Assembly (NCBI GenBank): GCA_027033555.1
Contig: JALVLE010000114.1
Location: 1 to 5,127, forward strand
DNA: 5,127 nucleotides
From: Caldifarciminota bacterium
GTDB lineage: Bacteria > Hydrothermota > Hydrothermia > UBA1063 > CAJXJZ01
Direction of reading: 5' to 3'
Each line of letters starts with the position of its first letter. Within the stretch, counting starts at the first letter, position 1. Both the position numbers and the translations under genes were made by a program. This document shows, piece by piece, positions 2 to 5,127 of the stretch. Below the pieces are notes generated by a model. It was not told the origin of the DNA. It worked only from the letters and a program-made list of their open reading frames with translations, and ran no database searches.

Positions 2-607
2 TTCCATCAAAAGGGAGAGTATTTGTTTGTTGAAGGGACTTTGATTAACAAAAAAACGTTTAAGAGCAAAGAGTTCAGGAGAAAATTCCGCAAGAATGTG
101 CAGATAGTGTTTCAGGAACCTGATGTAATGCTTTTTAATCCCACTGTGTATGATGAGATAGCATTTGGACTCAGAGTGTTTGGCATTGATAATGAGGAAG
201 AAAAAGTAATTAAAGTTGCAAGGATGCTCTTCATAGATAAATTACTTGAAAGGTCTATTTATAATCTCAGCGGAGGAGAGAAGCAAAAGGTAGCGATAGC
301 CGCGTGTCTGGTGGTTGAGCCATCTTTATTATTGCTTGATGAGCCCACTGCCTACCTTGATACAAAGAGTGCTCTTACACTAAGTAAAATAATAAGAGAT
401 AGTGACCTGACAGTTATAACAGCCGTTCATGACATTCATACAGCAAGGCTTTTTGCAGATCGCTTTGTTGCACTGTCTTCAGAGCACAAGAAGGTATTTG
501 ATGGTACCTTTGACGAGTTATACTCAAACAGGGATAAACTCAGAGATTTTGGTATTCATATATTTGATGATGCAGAGTGTGTAAAGGAGGAGGAAAATGG
601 AGGATAA
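2..607 (+). CDS. cbiO: ECF-type ABC transporter ATPase, probably nickel/cobalt uptake (CbiO/NikO-like), 5'-truncated by the window edge
   Basis: ATP-hydrolysing subunit of an energy-coupling-factor importer, acting on the cytoplasmic face of the membrane. The reading frame is open from base 2, so the gene starts upstream; 201 residues are visible and roughly the first 60-70, including the Walker A loop, are missing. Seen in order: Q-loop VFQEPD (107-124), ABC signature LSGGEKQ (266-286), Walker B LLLLDEP (326-346) with catalytic Glu at 341-343, D-loop AYLD just after, and the switch His in AVHD (428-430). The FQ-P-D Q-loop is typical of the CbiO/EcfA family. Substrate is not readable from the ATPase itself; nickel is inferred because nikR follows with a short overlap (597-607) and hydrogenase genes lie downstream. 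Cobalt or a vitamin would be the alternatives. The TTG at 23 is internal, not a start. Confidence 0.88.
583..594 (+). promoter_or_regulatory. Ribosome binding site of nikR
   Basis: The purine-rich stretch AAAGGAGGAGGA lies inside the last codons of the upstream ABC ATPase gene and ends two bases before the nikR ATG, with the GGAGG core 6 bases from it. It fixes the nikR start at 597. Confidence 0.8.
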
Positions 608-1004
608 AGTTGTAAGGTTCAGTGTATCGTTGCCTGAGTCTCTTTTAAAGAAACTTGATGAGAAAACCCTTGATAAGGGCTATACATCACGCTCTGAGCT
701 TATAAGGGATTTTATAAGGGAGCTTATCATTGAGGAGAAATGGGAAAAAGATGAGGAAGTGGTTGGTGTGCTTGTTATGATTTATGACCATCACAGAAGA
801 GGTCTTTCGGAAAAGATGCTTGAAGTGCAGCACAGCAGGGTACATAATATTTTGTGTACCACTCATGTCCATCTTGACCATGACTCCTGTCTTGAAACCA
901 TTGTAATTAAGGGAAAGCCAGATTTAATTGAGGGAATGGTCACAAAAATTGCAGGCCTAAAAGGTGTGAAGTTTGCAAAACTTGTAAAAACGGCTCTTGT
1001 GTAG
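597..1004 (+). CDS. nikR: Nickel-responsive transcriptional regulator NikR
   Basis: Ribbon-helix-helix repressor that binds Ni(II) and shuts down nickel uptake genes. Length is 135 residues, close to E. coli NikR (133). The N-terminal DNA-binding part is at about residues 4-46 (strand VVRFSVSLP, then helices with the [11 protein letters not shown] segment). The C-terminal ACT-like nickel domain holds His79, His90, His92 and Cys98; their spacing matches the E. coli high-affinity site His76, His87, His89, Cys95 exactly, offset by three. All four ligands are present, so it should be functional. The ATG start at 597 has an AAAGGAGGAGGA ribosome binding site directly upstream and overlaps the end of the ABC ATPase gene by 11 bases, so the two are co-transcribed and probably translationally coupled. 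Its targets are likely the transporter and perhaps the hyp/hyd genes, but I see no convincing NikR operator in the window. Confidence 0.96.
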
Positions 1005-1065: not shown

Positions 1066-1725
1066 TTAGTGTTTCACAATCTTTTTCATATACCCTGCTA
1101 CTTTCAGAAAATAAATCCCTTTTCGGTATCTGCGTATATCAAAAGTCATTACAGGAGTCTCTATTCTTCTTTTTTCTATACACCGGCCTTTTGTGCAGCC
1201 TCTTTAATCTCGCTTGGACTGTGCCAGTGCTTTACCACCTTAACCATAGCGTATCTGGTTGGGATATGTGAGACGCGGAAAAAAAGTGTTCAGGTTTGTG
1301 TCTTCAGGTGGTTGCACATAATCCGCTATTTCAATCCATGTACTTCCTCCATCTGTGGATATGTAAACGTCTGCATAATCTTTTCCCTCCCAGATTATTT
1401 TTTCCTTTGCTCCAACATTCCACACCTCGCCTCCCTTGGGAGATATGAGCTTAAACATAAAAAAGTCACTCAAATAGGCTGCTCCTGCTGAGGTATTGCC
1501 GCCAAATTCATTCTGGAACGCTCCCACAATTATATCATCGTATCCGTCTCCGTTAACATCTCCTGCATTGAAAACAGAGCGTCCCAACCAGCTGTATTCT
1601 GTTTCTCAGGCCATTTTTAACTTTCTATCGTGTGTTAGCGTATTTAGTATCCCTGCGGTAAGGATGAGAGTAAATATCACCTGTACTACCCTTTTTATCA
1701 CAGGGGTGGATAGGTTATACTGCAT
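1066..1725 (-). pseudogene. Decayed secreted protein gene: signal peptide, FG-GAP motif, Ig-like domain, sorting-domain-like tail
   Basis: The start ATG (1725-1723) has an AGGAGG site 6 bases upstream and opens a short signal-peptide-like segment: basic VIKR, then hydrophobic VVQVIFTLILTAGIL. Frame is lost at TGA 1608-1606 (codon 40), but the same frame resumes with WLGRSVFNAGDVNGDGYDD, a single FG-GAP/EF-hand-like calcium motif (1519-1560), then SPKGGEVWNVG and ISTDGGSTWIEIA, typical of Ig-like repeats in extracellular proteins. At a run of seven T (minus strand; 1279-1285) the frame shifts: as read it stops at 1240, but with one T fewer it continues RVSHIPTRYAMVKVV to a TAG at 1176-1178. 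The original frame then resumes and ends in RRYRKGIYFLKV and KKIVKH before TAA (1068-1066), like the end of a type A C-terminal sorting domain. Intact relatives usually have several FG-GAP repeats, so internal deletion is also likely. Sequencing error could explain the homopolymer shift but less easily the TGA. The parent protein and its role are unknown to me. Confidence 0.75.
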
Positions 1726-1930: not shown

Positions 1931-1959
1931 TTGACAATACTTATTGAATACATTATCAT
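1931..1959 (+). promoter_or_regulatory. Near-consensus sigma70-type promoter of hypA, giving a leaderless mRNA
   Basis: TTGACA (1931-1936, perfect -35) and TATCAT (1954-1959, five of six -10 bases) are separated by the optimal 17 bases. Transcription would start about 6-8 bases after the -10 box, at roughly 1965-1968, on or just before the hypA ATG at 1968. No Shine-Dalgarno sequence lies before that ATG. It also argues against the in-frame ATG at 1944, which lies between the two promoter boxes. Confidence 0.7.
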
Positions 1960-1967
1960 ATTTACAA

Positions 1968-2366
1968 ATGCATGAATGGGCTTTAGCGCAATCGGTTATA
2001 GATGCAACTATCAAAATCGTAAAAGAGGAAGGCATTACTTCCCCTCGTAGAGTTACCGTTGGTATTGGCGAATTGCAGGATATAGATCTGGATATATTCA
2101 AGAAGGCTATAGATGACATTAAAAAGACCACATCTCTTAAAGAGGTGGAATTTGTGTATAAGACGAATCCAGCTGTTCTAAAATGTAATAATTGTGGGCA
2201 CGAGTGGATGTACCACGATAGTGTGAAGGAACTTTCTGAGGAAGAGAGGGAAAATATACATTTTATTCCTGAAATTGTTCACATATATGTAAGGTGTCCA
2301 GTATGTGGGAGTTCTGATTTTGAAATGAAAAATGGAAGGGGGGTGTTCATTGAAAGGATTGAGTGA
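1968..2366 (+). CDS. hypA: [NiFe]-hydrogenase nickel metallochaperone HypA, long archaeal-type form
   Basis: Delivers Ni(II) to the hydrogenase large-subunit precursor in the cytoplasm, working with a HypB-type NTPase. I start it at ATG 1968 because HypA must begin Met-His-Glu: the N-terminal MHEW binds nickel through the N terminus and His2. The product is 132 residues, longer than bacterial HypA (about 113-118). The zinc domain has Cys73-x2-Cys76 and Cys110-x2-Cys113, separated by a 33-residue insert that contains His98. As I recall the Thermococcus kodakarensis HypA structures, zinc is held by Cys73/76/110/113 and nickel additionally by His98, so this protein matches that form residue for residue. 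Bacterial HypA has a much shorter spacing between the CxxC pairs. It is first in a tight pair with the overlapping Mrp/MinD-type ATPase and has its own promoter directly in front. Confidence 0.95.
   Translation: MHEWALAQSVIDATIKIVKEEGITSPRRVTVGIGELQDIDLDIFKKAIDDIKKTTSLKEVEFVYKTNPAVLKCNNCGHEWMYHDSVKELSEEERENIHFIPEIVHIYVRCPVCGSSDFEMKNGRGVFIERIE
2334..2343 (+). promoter_or_regulatory. Ribosome binding site that favours the TTG start of the Mrp/MinD-type ATPase
   Basis: The purine run GGAAGGGGGG within the 3' end of hypA lies 6 bases before TTG 2350. It overlaps the alternative ATG at 2332, which itself has no purine-rich site in front, so translation most likely begins at TTG. Confidence 0.5.
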
Positions 2367-3108
2367 GCCCCTTGACCCGAGAAAAATATTTGTTAAAAAT
2401 AAATACAGCAAGTTTTCCAACTTACTTGCTTTTGCAAGTGGTAAAGGAGGAGTAGGAAAAAGCACACTCTCCGGTCTTTTTTCTATGTATCTTGCGCAAA
2501 AAGGGTATAAAACCGGACTTTTGGACCTTGACCTTTATGGACCATCTGCACATATAATACTCGGAGCTCCGGTAGAAGGGTTACCAGAGGAAGAAAATGG
2601 TGTGATTCCCAAAGAAATAAATGGTGTACATTTTATGTCTGTTGTGTTTTATTCTGAAAATAGACCTCTTGTAATGCGTGGAAAAGACCTCAAAGATGCA
2701 GTCCTTGAACTTTTGACCATCACAAACTGGCCTGAACTTGACTGGTTAATCTTTGATATGCCACCAGGTCTTGGTGATACACTTTTGGAAGTATCAGAAC
2801 TTACACCTGCCAGATATATTGTTGTAACGAATTCCAGCAGGCTTTCCATGGAGAGTGTGGAGAAACTTATAGAATTCATTAAAACAGAGAATCTGGAATA
2901 TCACGGTCTTGTTGAAAATATGGTTATGAACGGAGGTCTGAAGTATATAAGAGATAAAAGCGAGGAGATGGGGGTACCATATCTTGGTACAGTTGGTTTT
3001 TATAAAGACATTGAGAAATTATATGGCGACCCAGATGCGCTAATGTCCTCTCCTCTAAAGGAGGAGTTTGATAGACTTTTCAAGAATATAGTGGAAGGTA
3101 GAAAATGA
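2350..3108 (+). CDS. hypB: Mrp/MinD-family P-loop ATPase, probable archaeal-type HypB (HypA partner)
   Basis: SIMIBI-class ATPase with a deviant Walker A GKGGVGKST (residues 31-39 counted from the TTG at 2350), switch region LDLDLYGPSAH (about 58-68) and Walker B/switch II FDMPPGLGD (135-143), as in Mrp/Nbp35 proteins. It has no CxxC pair near the C terminus (no cysteine at all from this start), so it is unlikely to be an Fe-S carrier like Mrp/Nbp35. In Thermococcus the HypB role is filled by such an Mrp/MinD-type ATPase that pairs with HypA; direct overlap with hypA and the hydrogenase downstream support the same role here. Canonical HypB is a GTPase of a different SIMIBI branch and is not seen in this window. 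The start is uncertain: TTG 2350 follows a GGAAGGGGGG stretch at good spacing and overlaps hypA by 17 bases; ATG 2332 (258 residues) has no ribosome binding site. General Fe-S biogenesis is the alternative function. Confidence 0.85.
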   Translation: MKGLSEPLDPRKIFVKNKYSKFSNLLAFASGKGGVGKSTLSGLFSMYLAQKGYKTGLLDLDLYGPSAHIILGAPVEGLPEEENGVIPKEINGVHFMSVVFYSENRPLVMRGKDLKDAVLELLTITNWPELDWLIFDMPPGLGDTLLEVSELTPARYIVVTNSSRLSMESVEKLIEFIKTENLEYHGLVENMVMNGGLKYIRDKSEEMGVPYLGTVGFYKDIEKLYGDPDALMSSPLKEEFDRLFKNIVEGRK

Positions 3109-3166: not shown

Positions 3167-4213
3167 ATGAGGGTATTTAAAATGAAGAAGGGTAATCTTG
3201 TACCCTTCTTGAGGAGCCTGAAAGAGTATGGAGAAGTATGGGGGCCTGTGAAAAAAGGTAACAGTTATGTGTATGCCAACGCTGACCCAGAAGAGTTTGA
3301 TATAACTGCTGTAAGAACATTGATACCTGCCAAGAAATTCTTTCTTCCACAAAAGGACACATTTCTGAAATTTAAAAAGGGTGGCTGGAAGGAGAATTTG
3401 AATGCCCCCAGAAGGGTGATTTTCGGATTGCACCCGTGTGATTTGCATGCTCTGAATATTTATCACGAGTTCTACACAAGAATTTATGAAGATCCCTTTT
3501 ACCTTGCCAAACGGAATGCTGCTATTCTCATAGGGCTTTCCTGTATGCCAGATGAGCATTGTTTCTGTCATCTTACGGATACTTCTACCATTGAAGAGGG
3601 CTTTGACCTGTTCTTTACAGACCTTGGAGATAGGTTCCTTGTCTGGATAGGCTCCCCGAAGGGTGACGAGATTGTGGCAAAACGAAAAGAGATGGTGGAA
3701 GAGACCACCAGAGAGGATATAAAAGATTATATAGAGTGGAGAAAGAGAAGAGAAAAGGCCTTTAAAGTTGACCTATCTTTTACCGGTTTGCCCGAGATTG
3801 TCAGTGCAAGTTATGACTCTGATATATGGGAAAAAATGGGGGACGCATGCTTGAGCTGTGGTACCTGTACAATGGTGTGTCCTTCCTGCACATGTTTTGA
3901 CGTGGAAGATGAATATGATATAAGAAATGAGGAGGTAAATCGTAATAGGAAGTGGTATTCCTGTATGTTTAGAGAGTACTCACTTGTGGCTGGCGGGCAC
4001 AACTTCAGAGAGGCTCGCTCTGAAAGACTGAGACTGTGGTACACTCACAAACTTGTTGGATTCATGAGTGAGTACGGGGAACCTGCCTGTACTGGATGCG
4101 GAAGATGTGTTGTATATTGCCCTGTAGAGATAAATGTTCTGTCTGTTGTAAGAGCTTTGATGGAAGAGAAAAATGATGCGTTTTGGGCAAAAACGGAGGT
4201 CAAGAAATTATGA
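3167..4213 (+). CDS. hydB: Group 3b [NiFe] hydrogenase (sulfhydrogenase) beta subunit, iron-sulfur electron carrier
   Basis: Cytoplasmic subunit that relays electrons through Fe-S clusters between the NiFe core (alpha/delta) and the flavin gamma subunit; in Thermococcales the beta-gamma half is credited with sulfur/polysulfide reduction. The product is 348 residues, somewhat shorter than the archaeal homologue (about 370). Seen in the sequence: GLHPCDLHAL (87-96), a family hallmark, and GLSCMPDEHCFC (123-134). The C-terminal two-cluster ferredoxin part has Cys228-x2-Cys231-x2-Cys234-x3-Cys238, with Cys241 and Cys243 close by, and Cys308-x2-Cys311-x2-Cys314-x3-Cys318. The additional cysteines 91, 126, 132, 134 and 266 could support further metal or cluster sites (inference). 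It overlaps the gamma gene by 4 bases (ATGA), so translation is coupled. Anaerobic sulfite reductase subunit A is a relative, but the neighbouring gamma gene, hypA and the beta-gamma order favour the hydrogenase. Confidence 0.9.
   Translation: MRVFKMKKGNLVPFLRSLKEYGEVWGPVKKGNSYVYANADPEEFDITAVRTLIPAKKFFLPQKDTFLKFKKGGWKENLNAPRRVIFGLHPCDLHALNIYHEFYTRIYEDPFYLAKRNAAILIGLSCMPDEHCFCHLTDTSTIEEGFDLFFTDLGDRFLVWIGSPKGDEIVAKRKEMVEETTREDIKDYIEWRKRREKAFKVDLSFTGLPEIVSASYDSDIWEKMGDACLSCGTCTMVCPSCTCFDVEDEYDIRNEEVNRNRKWYSCMFREYSLVAGGHNFREARSERLRLWYTHKLVGFMSEYGEPACTGCGRCVVYCPVEINVLSVVRALMEEKNDAFWAKTEVKKL
4195..4200 (+). promoter_or_regulatory. Ribosome binding site of the gamma subunit gene
   Basis: GGAGGT within the last codons of the beta gene sits 9 bases before ATG 4210. 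It decides for that start over the in-frame TTG at 4183, which has no purine-rich site at suitable distance and would extend the overlap to 31 bases. Confidence 0.65.
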
Positions 4214-5091
4214 GCCCAAGAGAAGAAATTTTAAAATGTGAAGTGCCCGAAAAGGAAAACCCATATATTCCCGAAAGGGCAAGAATTATAAGAAAATATG
4301 ACCTCACAAAGGATGTGAGGTTCTTTCAGGTAAGACTGTGCAACAGAACCAAAGCAATGGAATGGACAGCCAATTATAAACCGGGGCAGTTTATGATGAT
4401 TTCCATACCTGGCGTAGGCGAAGCACCCTTCTCTATTACATCTTCTCCCACAAGACCTGGAATATTTGAATTTTGTATAAGAAAAGTGGGCAGATTGACC
4501 AGTAAGCTTTTTGAACTTAAGGAAAATGATTTTATTTGGCTGCGTGGCCCATTTGGAAACGGGTTCCCCGTGGAAAAAATGGGAGAAAAAGACCTCCTGT
4601 TTGTAGCTGGAGGACTTGGAGCTGCGCCTTTAAGGTCCGTTCTATTATACGCTCTTGATTTCAGGGAAGCTTTTGGGAAAATATATTATCTATATGGAGC
4701 CAAGACCCCTGATGAGATGCTTTTTAGGGAAGAGTTTATTGCAATGAAAGAAAGAGATGATTTTGAGTGTTATCTATCAGTGGACAGGGACCCGGATGGA
4801 AGTTGGCCATACGATGTGGGTGTTGTGACCACGCTGTTTAAATATGTAAAAGACATTGATGCCAAAAATACTGTCGCTGTTGTGTGTGGCCCCCCTGTGA
4901 TGTACAAGTATGTGGTAGATGAGTTTTTGAAACTGGGTATTCCGGAGGAAAACATATACATGACCCTGGAGAGGAAGATGAAGTGTGGAATGGGTAAGTG
5001 CGGACAGTGTGTGGTTGGTCATAAATACACCTGCGTTGATGGTCCTGTTTTCACTCTATGGGATGTTAAAACTATCAGGAATTTGATTTAA
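4210..5091 (+). CDS. hydG: Group 3b [NiFe] hydrogenase (sulfhydrogenase) gamma subunit, FAD/NAD(P)H oxidoreductase
   Basis: Flavoprotein that exchanges electrons with NAD(P)H and passes them to or from the beta subunit. From ATG 4210 it has 293 residues, about the length of the Pyrococcus furiosus gamma subunit. It is a ferredoxin-NADP reductase fold of the PyrK-like class: FAD-binding EAPFSIT (71-77, where classical reductases have R-x-Y-S), a G-x-x-T flavin phosphate segment VGRLTSKL (93-100), nucleotide-binding GGLGAAP (134-140), YGAKTPDEML (162-171) and CGPPVM (226-231). A C-terminal [2Fe-2S] motif follows with Cys259-x4-Cys264-x2-Cys267-x7-Cys275. All expected cofactor residues are present. 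The start codon overlaps the beta stop (ATGA), and a gene beginning like a hydrogenase small subunit follows after 12 bases. NADH versus NADPH preference cannot be read from the sequence. The symbol follows Pyrococcus usage and is unrelated to the [FeFe]-hydrogenase maturase HydG. Confidence 0.93.
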   Translation: MSPREEILKCEVPEKENPYIPERARIIRKYDLTKDVRFFQVRLCNRTKAMEWTANYKPGQFMMISIPGVGEAPFSITSSPTRPGIFEFCIRKVGRLTSKLFELKENDFIWLRGPFGNGFPVEKMGEKDLLFVAGGLGAAPLRSVLLYALDFREAFGKIYYLYGAKTPDEMLFREEFIAMKERDDFECYLSVDRDPDGSWPYDVGVVTTLFKYVKDIDAKNTVAVVCGPPVMYKYVVDEFLKLGIPEENIYMTLERKMKCGMGKCGQCVVGHKYTCVDGPVFTLWDVKTIRNLI

Positions 5092-5097
5092 GGAGGG
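5092..5097 (+). promoter_or_regulatory. Ribosome binding site of the downstream (delta subunit) gene
   Basis: GGAGGG begins immediately after the gamma stop codon and lies 6 bases before ATG 5104, marking the start of a further operon gene. Confidence 0.75.
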
Positions 5098-5103
5098 TGT
5101 ATT

Positions 5104-5127
5104 ATGGGAAAACCAAAAATTGGGATT
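5104..5127 (+). CDS. hydD: Start of next operon gene, presumably group 3b hydrogenase delta (small) subunit; cut by the window edge
   Basis: Only eight codons are present (MGKPKIGI). The good ribosome binding site, the 12-base gap after gamma, and the known beta-gamma-delta-alpha order of Pyrococcus-type sulfhydrogenase operons make the NiFe small subunit, which carries Fe-S clusters next to the catalytic subunit, the expected product. A short M-G-K-x-(K/R)-I-G start is compatible with that family, but the identification rests almost wholly on context. Confidence 0.6.

Follow-up and report, generated by a model that had tools for sequence, protein, structure and literature searches.

A HypA gene paired with a probable ATPase-type HypB in a [NiFe] hydrogenase gene cluster of a Hydrothermota bacterium

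Which NTPase would work with HypA in nickel loading in a bacterium whose hypA gene overlaps the gene of an Mrp/MinD-family ATPase, and did the two genes arrive together with the hydrogenase they would serve? The question is raised by a contig of 5,127 nucleotides from Caldifarciminota bacterium (JALVLE010000114.1; hereafter the window, i.e., the whole stretch of DNA that was analysed), which makes up the whole of C114, one of the 433 contigs in a MAG of 1.96 Mb (92.4% complete, 7.49% contaminated). Our reading, to which we give a probability of roughly 85%, is that the window encodes, in a bacterial version, the nickel-loading pair of the Thermococcus kodakarensis type, HypA and an ATPase likely to act in place of the GTPase HypB, within a cluster of nikR and a sulfhydrogenase-type [NiFe] hydrogenase; that the phylum contains three lineages of this ATPase and genomes with either NTPase; and that the ATPase, and probably the pair, was inherited apart from the hydrogenase. 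The host is bacterial, as a first-pass annotation made from the sequence alone had proposed, since its RpoB is of the bacterial kind (1598 bits, cut-off 801). The alpha hydrogenase subunit of a genome of the same class (G017) is identical, from residue 6 onward, to a database protein labelled Candidatus Hydrothermota, which points to this as the likely lineage; NCBI now places that name under Caldifarciminota, and the abstract of PMC12285271 lists Hydrothermota among the names of the WOR-3 lineage.

Gene order around hypA

The features of the window are as follows.

2..607, plus strand: ECF-type (CbiO-like) transporter ATP-binding subunit, 5' end cut by the contig (PF00005, 60.7 bits)
597..1004, plus strand: nikR, nickel-responsive regulator, 135 residues (PF08753, 95.5 bits; PF01402; NF001884, 188.9 bits, cut-off 119)
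1240..1587, minus strand: FG-GAP repeat gene remnant, lying between nikR and hypA (PF01839, 32.4 bits)
1931..1959, plus strand: probable hypA promoter, TTGACA-N17-TATCAT (11 of 12 consensus positions)
1968..2366, plus strand: hypA from an ATG, 132 residues, long zinc-domain type with His98 (profile, phmmer, AlphaFold)
2350..3108, plus strand: probable ATPase-type HypB of the Mrp/MinD family, 252 residues from the likely TTG start or 258 from the alternative ATG at 2332
3167..4213, plus strand: hydrogenase beta subunit, sulfhydrogenase type, Fe-S (NF040829, 314.8 bits, under the cut-off of 690)
4210..5091, plus strand: hydrogenase gamma subunit, FAD/NAD binding (NF006220, 324.9 bits, cut-off 395; scored on the frame from 4183)
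5104..5127, plus strand: beginning of the delta subunit of the hydrogenase, truncated where the contig ends

The ATG of the gamma gene at 4210 overlaps the stop codon of the beta gene. Another contig of the same bin, C292, overlaps the last 231 bases of the window (4897–5127) with four mismatches, and beyond the overlap it encodes the delta and alpha subunits, a maturation protease and HypF; four mismatches within one bin suggest that it combines two strains. In two siblings (G046 and G048) a single contig carries the whole order of transporter ATPase, nikR, hypA, ATPase, beta, gamma, delta, alpha, protease and hypF. In G046, CbiM and a CbiQ-like gene (24.3 bits, cut-off 25) lie upstream of the same transporter ATPase gene, and from these matches the transporter genes are likely to form a nickel uptake system. 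A hypD gene was found in all four genus members.

The FG-GAP remnant and the sigma70 promoter named in the first-pass annotation both stood up. Besides its PF01839 match, the remnant has a counterpart in a third sibling (G047): positions 1192–1468 of the window align at 81% to part of a 737-residue FG-GAP frame that lies there between nikR and hypA and has a weak match, under the cut-off, to a Por secretion tail. The nikR–hypA gap in G046 and G048 is ~100 bases with no gene inside, and the remnant stands outside the nickel system. The promoter ends 8 bases ahead of the hypA ATG, and both the element and its distance are kept upstream of hypA in G046, G047 and G048; promoter-like sites as such occur in the region at about chance frequency (7 found, 6.4 expected). 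Since the promoter ends so near the ATG and the spacing is the same in three siblings, the hypA transcript is probably leaderless or nearly so.

HypA, the overlapping ATPase and their distribution

HypA matched NCBIfam NF003008 (167 bits, cut-off 125) and PF01155 (79 bits, cut-off 28.9), has the N-terminal MHE (here MHEW) and two CxxC pairs, at 73 and 110 (Cys73/76/110/113), and shows the long zinc-domain spacing, with 33 residues between the pairs and His98 in the motif IHFIPE. It aligned by phmmer to T. kodakarensis HypA 3a43 without gaps over residues 1–131 (1.9e-31), and thus the residue numbers that the first-pass annotation had given hold, as does its description of a Thermococcus-style long zinc domain. 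The AlphaFold model (pLDDT 90) had as its best PDB match 5aun_A, the HypA of the HypAB-Ni complex.

From either possible start the ATPase frame overlaps hypA (by 17 bases from TTG 2350); we favour the TTG over ATG 2332 because a homologue, P0001, has 252 residues and because pLDDT is low over residues 1–11. The best PDB match of the protein was T. kodakarensis HypB 3vx3/5aun (8e-62; 212 bits to 3vx3), the next protein reaching 4e-28 and 102 bits. Its AlphaFold model (pLDDT 91) agreed, the 12 best PDB matches all being T. kodakarensis ATPase-type HypB (TMt 0.90–0.93). Named relatives among the matches listed include Dictyoglomus, Caldisericia and a Patescibacteria MAG.

When we searched for canonical HypB with TIGR00073 (cut-off 121.2 bits), no protein of the window's genome scored over the cut-off, the best reaching 22.7 bits, and none did so in three genus mates (95–98% complete, 30–100 contigs). 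A census of the phylum with a 25-row ATPase profile gave at least 280 bits in 22 of 147 genomes and at most 172.3 bits everywhere else, with nothing between, which sets the ATPase cleanly apart from housekeeping Mrp. The GTPase HypB was over the cut-off in 91 of the 147, and only one genome (G092) had both NTPases. HypA was over the cut-off in 110 genomes, among which 20 had only the ATPase, 86 only the GTPase, one both and three neither (Fisher p 8e-18 for exclusion, a statistic that ignores kinship). Put differently, HypB reaches the cut-off in just one of the 22 ATPase genomes. These 22 fall into eight families, two of which (f22 and f30) also contain GTPase genomes. As neither the genome nor its genus mates yielded a HypB over the cut-off and the distribution is so nearly exclusive, the proposal that the ATPase stands in place of the GTPase HypB is upheld, and on homology it likely replaces it.

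A few genomes depart from this pattern. The ATPase of G092 begins a contig of 5 kb that is possibly foreign to its bin. In G127 a 243-residue frame gave a weak HypB match, 49 bits and below the cut-off. The genomes with HypA over the cut-off and neither NTPase are G064, G105 and G146; G105, a single 3.26 Mb contig at 89% completeness, encodes a hydrogenase large subunit as well as a HypA of the short form. G125 has the HypA–ATPase pair and, at 95% completeness, no match to a [NiFe] hydrogenase large subunit.

Fifteen of the 22 ATPase genomes have HypA no more than 375 bases away from the ATPase. The exceptions are G047 and G143, where HypA is cut by a contig end, G092, where the ATPase begins its contig, and the four genomes of family f3, in which the two genes are on different contigs. 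A scan of 80 loci, mostly drawn by the general P-loop motif, contained four with hypA directly before the ATPase gene (Thermoplasmatota, two Bathyarchaeota, Thermoproteota), all archaeal and all with a long HypA; HypB over the cut-off was not found in these four genomes, for which completeness is not given. At a further locus (L034) a neighbour of the ATPase matched HypA at only 9e-4.

The form of HypA goes with the NTPase. We defined a long HypA by 31–33 residues between the CxxC pairs and the motif [IVL]HFxP[ED], which contains His98, and found it in 20 of the 22 ATPase genomes, the other two having a 52-residue fragment (G143) and a short HypA only (G092); it also occurs in G146. Across 41 long HypAs (that of the window and 40 of 61 search hits), neither His98 nor any of the four cysteines varies. 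We read the HypAs of 28 of 87 GTPase genomes: the motif is absent from all 28, although several have some histidine in the loop, and the CxxC pairs are 12–22 residues apart in 22 and lack their second member in six. In these six (G103, G108, G113, G114, G116 and G117) the single CxxC is accompanied by a CxC-like motif as the second site (CACN, CKCN, CSCN, CTCN). The long His98 form thus accompanies the ATPase.

Descent of the pair and of the hydrogenase

A tree of 63 ATPase rows, including 36 of the 120 search hits listed, joined the window's family (f1) with Dictyoglomus and Caldisericia (100/98), a family of the same class (f3) with Thermococcales (100/99, three other rows included) and 14 rows of six other families into a third clade (100/98). 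AU tests rejected one clade for all 22 ATPases (p 8e-53) and also rejected f1 with f3 (5.5e-6) and f1 with Thermococcales (7.6e-6), these last two tests having been framed after the tree was seen and with nearest kin moved along. P-loops were seen for nine of the 14 third-lineage ATPases, and read GGKGGIGKS in G144, G145, G133, G135, G136, G139, G072 and G092 and GGKGGVGKS in G126; that of the window is SGKGGVGKS.

The 54-row HypA tree likewise placed f3 with T. kodakarensis, a Desulfurococcales and two other rows (99/97) and f1 apart, which suggests that HypA moves with the ATPase; the AU test rejected neither f1 with f3 (p 0.18) nor f1 with T. kodakarensis (p 0.13), HypA is too short for firm placement, and its tree alone is too weak to decide on transfer.

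The only PDB match of the beta subunit at E 1e-10 was sulfhydrogenase 1 beta, and group 3b is the label that we take to apply to this hydrogenase. The first-pass annotation had called it Thermococcales-type, and this is right as regards the sulfhydrogenase type and goes too far otherwise: beta remained below both NCBIfam cut-offs (the 314.8 bits above, and 273 bits against 750), gamma scored 274.4 (cut-off 650) and 261.1 (cut-off 600) as well as missing the subfamily cut-off of 395, and the alpha subunit is 40% identical to that of Thermococcus. By these scores beta and gamma are relatives of the Thermococcales enzymes, not equivalogs. A first alpha tree had 44 rows, with 26 hand-picked phylum frames of 429–461 residues standing for part of the hydrogenases of the phylum, and a second had 37, leaving out G057, G098, P0297, P0218, P0228, P0258 and the outgroup. 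In the latter, f1, f3, the GTPase genome G025 and one other row form one clade (100/99), the third-lineage ATPase genome G132 goes with the GTPase genomes G010 and G012 (100/100), and a 100/100 split separates the alpha of the window's genome from the Thermococcales sulfhydrogenases. One clade for nine alphas of ATPase genomes was rejected (1e-52). The alpha identities to the window's genome were 76% for G017 (f3), 62% for G025 (GTPase) and 40% for T. kodakarensis, and comparison of the two sets of trees together with these identities shows that the ATPase does not follow the hydrogenase. The ATPase was passed on independently of its client hydrogenase, and so, probably, was the HypA–ATPase pair.

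Three other accounts of the locus deserve weighing. The ATPase might belong to the Fe-S cluster carriers of the Mrp/Nbp35/ApbC family, lie beside hypA by chance and serve the Fe-S-rich hydrogenase subunits. Its top Pfam family is indeed PF10609 (iron-transfer NTPase), and the public names of several relatives are Mrp/NBP35 or Fe-S cluster carrier, labels owing to which such genomes look as if they had no HypB at all. We nevertheless consider this account very improbable and rejected the carrier function: the protein has no CxxC, the ligands of such carriers, as the first-pass annotation had noted together with the overlap with hypA, and the genome encodes a separate Mrp on C277 (352-residue frame) with CPKC. 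On the clade model, which includes the window's own sequence, the ATPase scored 369 bits and that Mrp 147, the gap between 280 and 172 bits holds over all 147 genomes, and the fold search ranked the 12 ATPase-type HypB chains above ApbC by more than six orders of magnitude in E-value. The ATPase, moreover, occurs where HypB is missing, and in both sequence and fold it lies nearest T. kodakarensis HypB instead of grouping with housekeeping Mrp. Less probable than either of the other two accounts is that a canonical HypB is encoded in the unassembled part of the genome and the ATPase is an auxiliary factor, as the 92.4% completeness, the 433 contigs and the presence of both NTPases in G092 might allow; the three near-complete genus mates are without HypB too, as are 21 of the 22 ATPase genomes, and the weak match in the genome itself is a 42-position stretch of a 440-residue protein whose score exceeds the cut-off for the broad CobW/HypB/UreG family alone (28.2 bits, cut-off 20.7, with part of the domain aligned) and is 22–23 bits on the HypB model. 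We therefore rejected a hidden HypB as well.

The remaining account, which we place a little below the Fe-S carrier in likelihood, is that pair and client hydrogenase came from a Thermococcales-like archaeon as one module, much as the first-pass annotation had suggested when it had them move together between domains. The genes are neighbours, the HypA residue numbers are those of T. kodakarensis, family f3 has a Thermococcales-like ATPase, and AU tests rejected neither the f3 alpha with Thermococcus (0.095) nor, as given above, the HypA of f1 with that of T. kodakarensis. Joint transfer is nonetheless not supported by the ATPase, which belongs with Dictyoglomus and Caldisericia and for which a Thermococcales grouping was rejected, or by the alpha subunit, which is 62–76% identical to those of five genomes of the same class that have either the GTPase or an ATPase of another lineage; even the alpha of f3, including that of G017 with its Thermococcales-type ATPase, still groups with f1. 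Within our preferred reading, of a T. kodakarensis-type pair inherited apart from the hydrogenase, we lean slightly towards a further idea: that the HypA–ATPase pair is a plug-in nickel loader, spreading as a unit and, on several occasions in a single bacterial phylum, swapped with the HypA–GTPase HypB pair around a hydrogenase that did not move, and that the long His98 loop is the coupling part, placing the nickel site in HypA because the ATPase has none.

Comparison with known systems

In T. kodakarensis the hypA and ATPase genes are adjacent, and no GTPase HypB is known to be present. This pair is reportedly the subject of Sasaki et al. 2013 and Watanabe et al. 2015 (PDB 3vx3, 5aun, 5auo, 5aup), and the abstract of the 2013 paper is said to describe the ATPase gene as conserved in species without hypB and adjacent to hypA. 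By analogy with that complex, the ATPase is predicted to stay dimeric with ATP bound and to bind two HypA; HypA in this state would coordinate one nickel ion with His98 and with Met1-His2 at its N-terminus; on hydrolysis the nickel-loaded HypA would be set free; and this would pass the ion to the unprocessed alpha subunit, which the protease encoded in the cluster would then trim. According to PMC7055735, the nickel ligands of the T. kodakarensis complex lie in the MHE motif and at His98, the ATPase activity of HypB rises threefold with HypA, and no nickel site was found in HypB itself.

The excerpts of PMC7055735, PMC12134894 and PMC9164220 ascribe the ATPase HypB to T. kodakarensis or to "some archaeal" homologues, PMC9164220 adding "some organisms", and in the titles and abstracts of the literature that we searched ATPase-type HypB was not described in bacteria, which the original 2013 and 2015 papers may mention. 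As far as these partial sources go, the suggestion that the variant is wider than usually described was well founded: the mechanism itself is known, and its range among bacteria has been little described. ATP-driven nickel loading, presented in them through T. kodakarensis or some archaea, would here operate in a bacterial phylum, with three ATPase lineages, a near exclusion of the GTPase system and a matching form of HypA. Relatives that have the same kind of hydrogenase and either chaperone pair amount to a natural swap experiment, ATP against GTP for nickel insertion.

The pair of the window shares its predicted role, nickel insertion into [NiFe] hydrogenase, with the canonical HypA–HypB GTPase pair of, for example, E. 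coli and H. pylori. Its NTPase is of another family, canonical HypB being a G3E GTPase according to PMC9164220, and the HypAs of the phylum's GTPase genomes, 28 of which were read, differ in their missing [IVL]HFxP[ED] motif and in their shorter CxxC gap or missing second CxxC. With the Mrp/ApbC/Nbp35 carriers the ATPase has in common the P-loop NTPase fold and a deviant Walker A (GKGGVGKS), whereas the genome's own Mrp has, besides CPKC, ~100 extra N-terminal residues. The hydrogenase resembles the sulfhydrogenases I/II of Thermococcales in its subunit families and in its beta-gamma-delta-alpha order, which is also the gene order of those enzymes; it differs in scoring under the NCBIfam equivalog cut-offs and in the identity and the split of its alpha subunit. 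The closest likeness is to T. kodakarensis HypAB, in the length class of HypA, its four cysteines and His98, and in an ATPase that is ~43% identical, of the same fold and likewise devoid of CxxC; unlike that system, the pair of the window has a bacterial host, an ATPase nearer those of Dictyoglomus and Caldisericia, a place in a nikR–hydrogenase cluster, and a client whose alpha subunit is far from that of Thermococcus.
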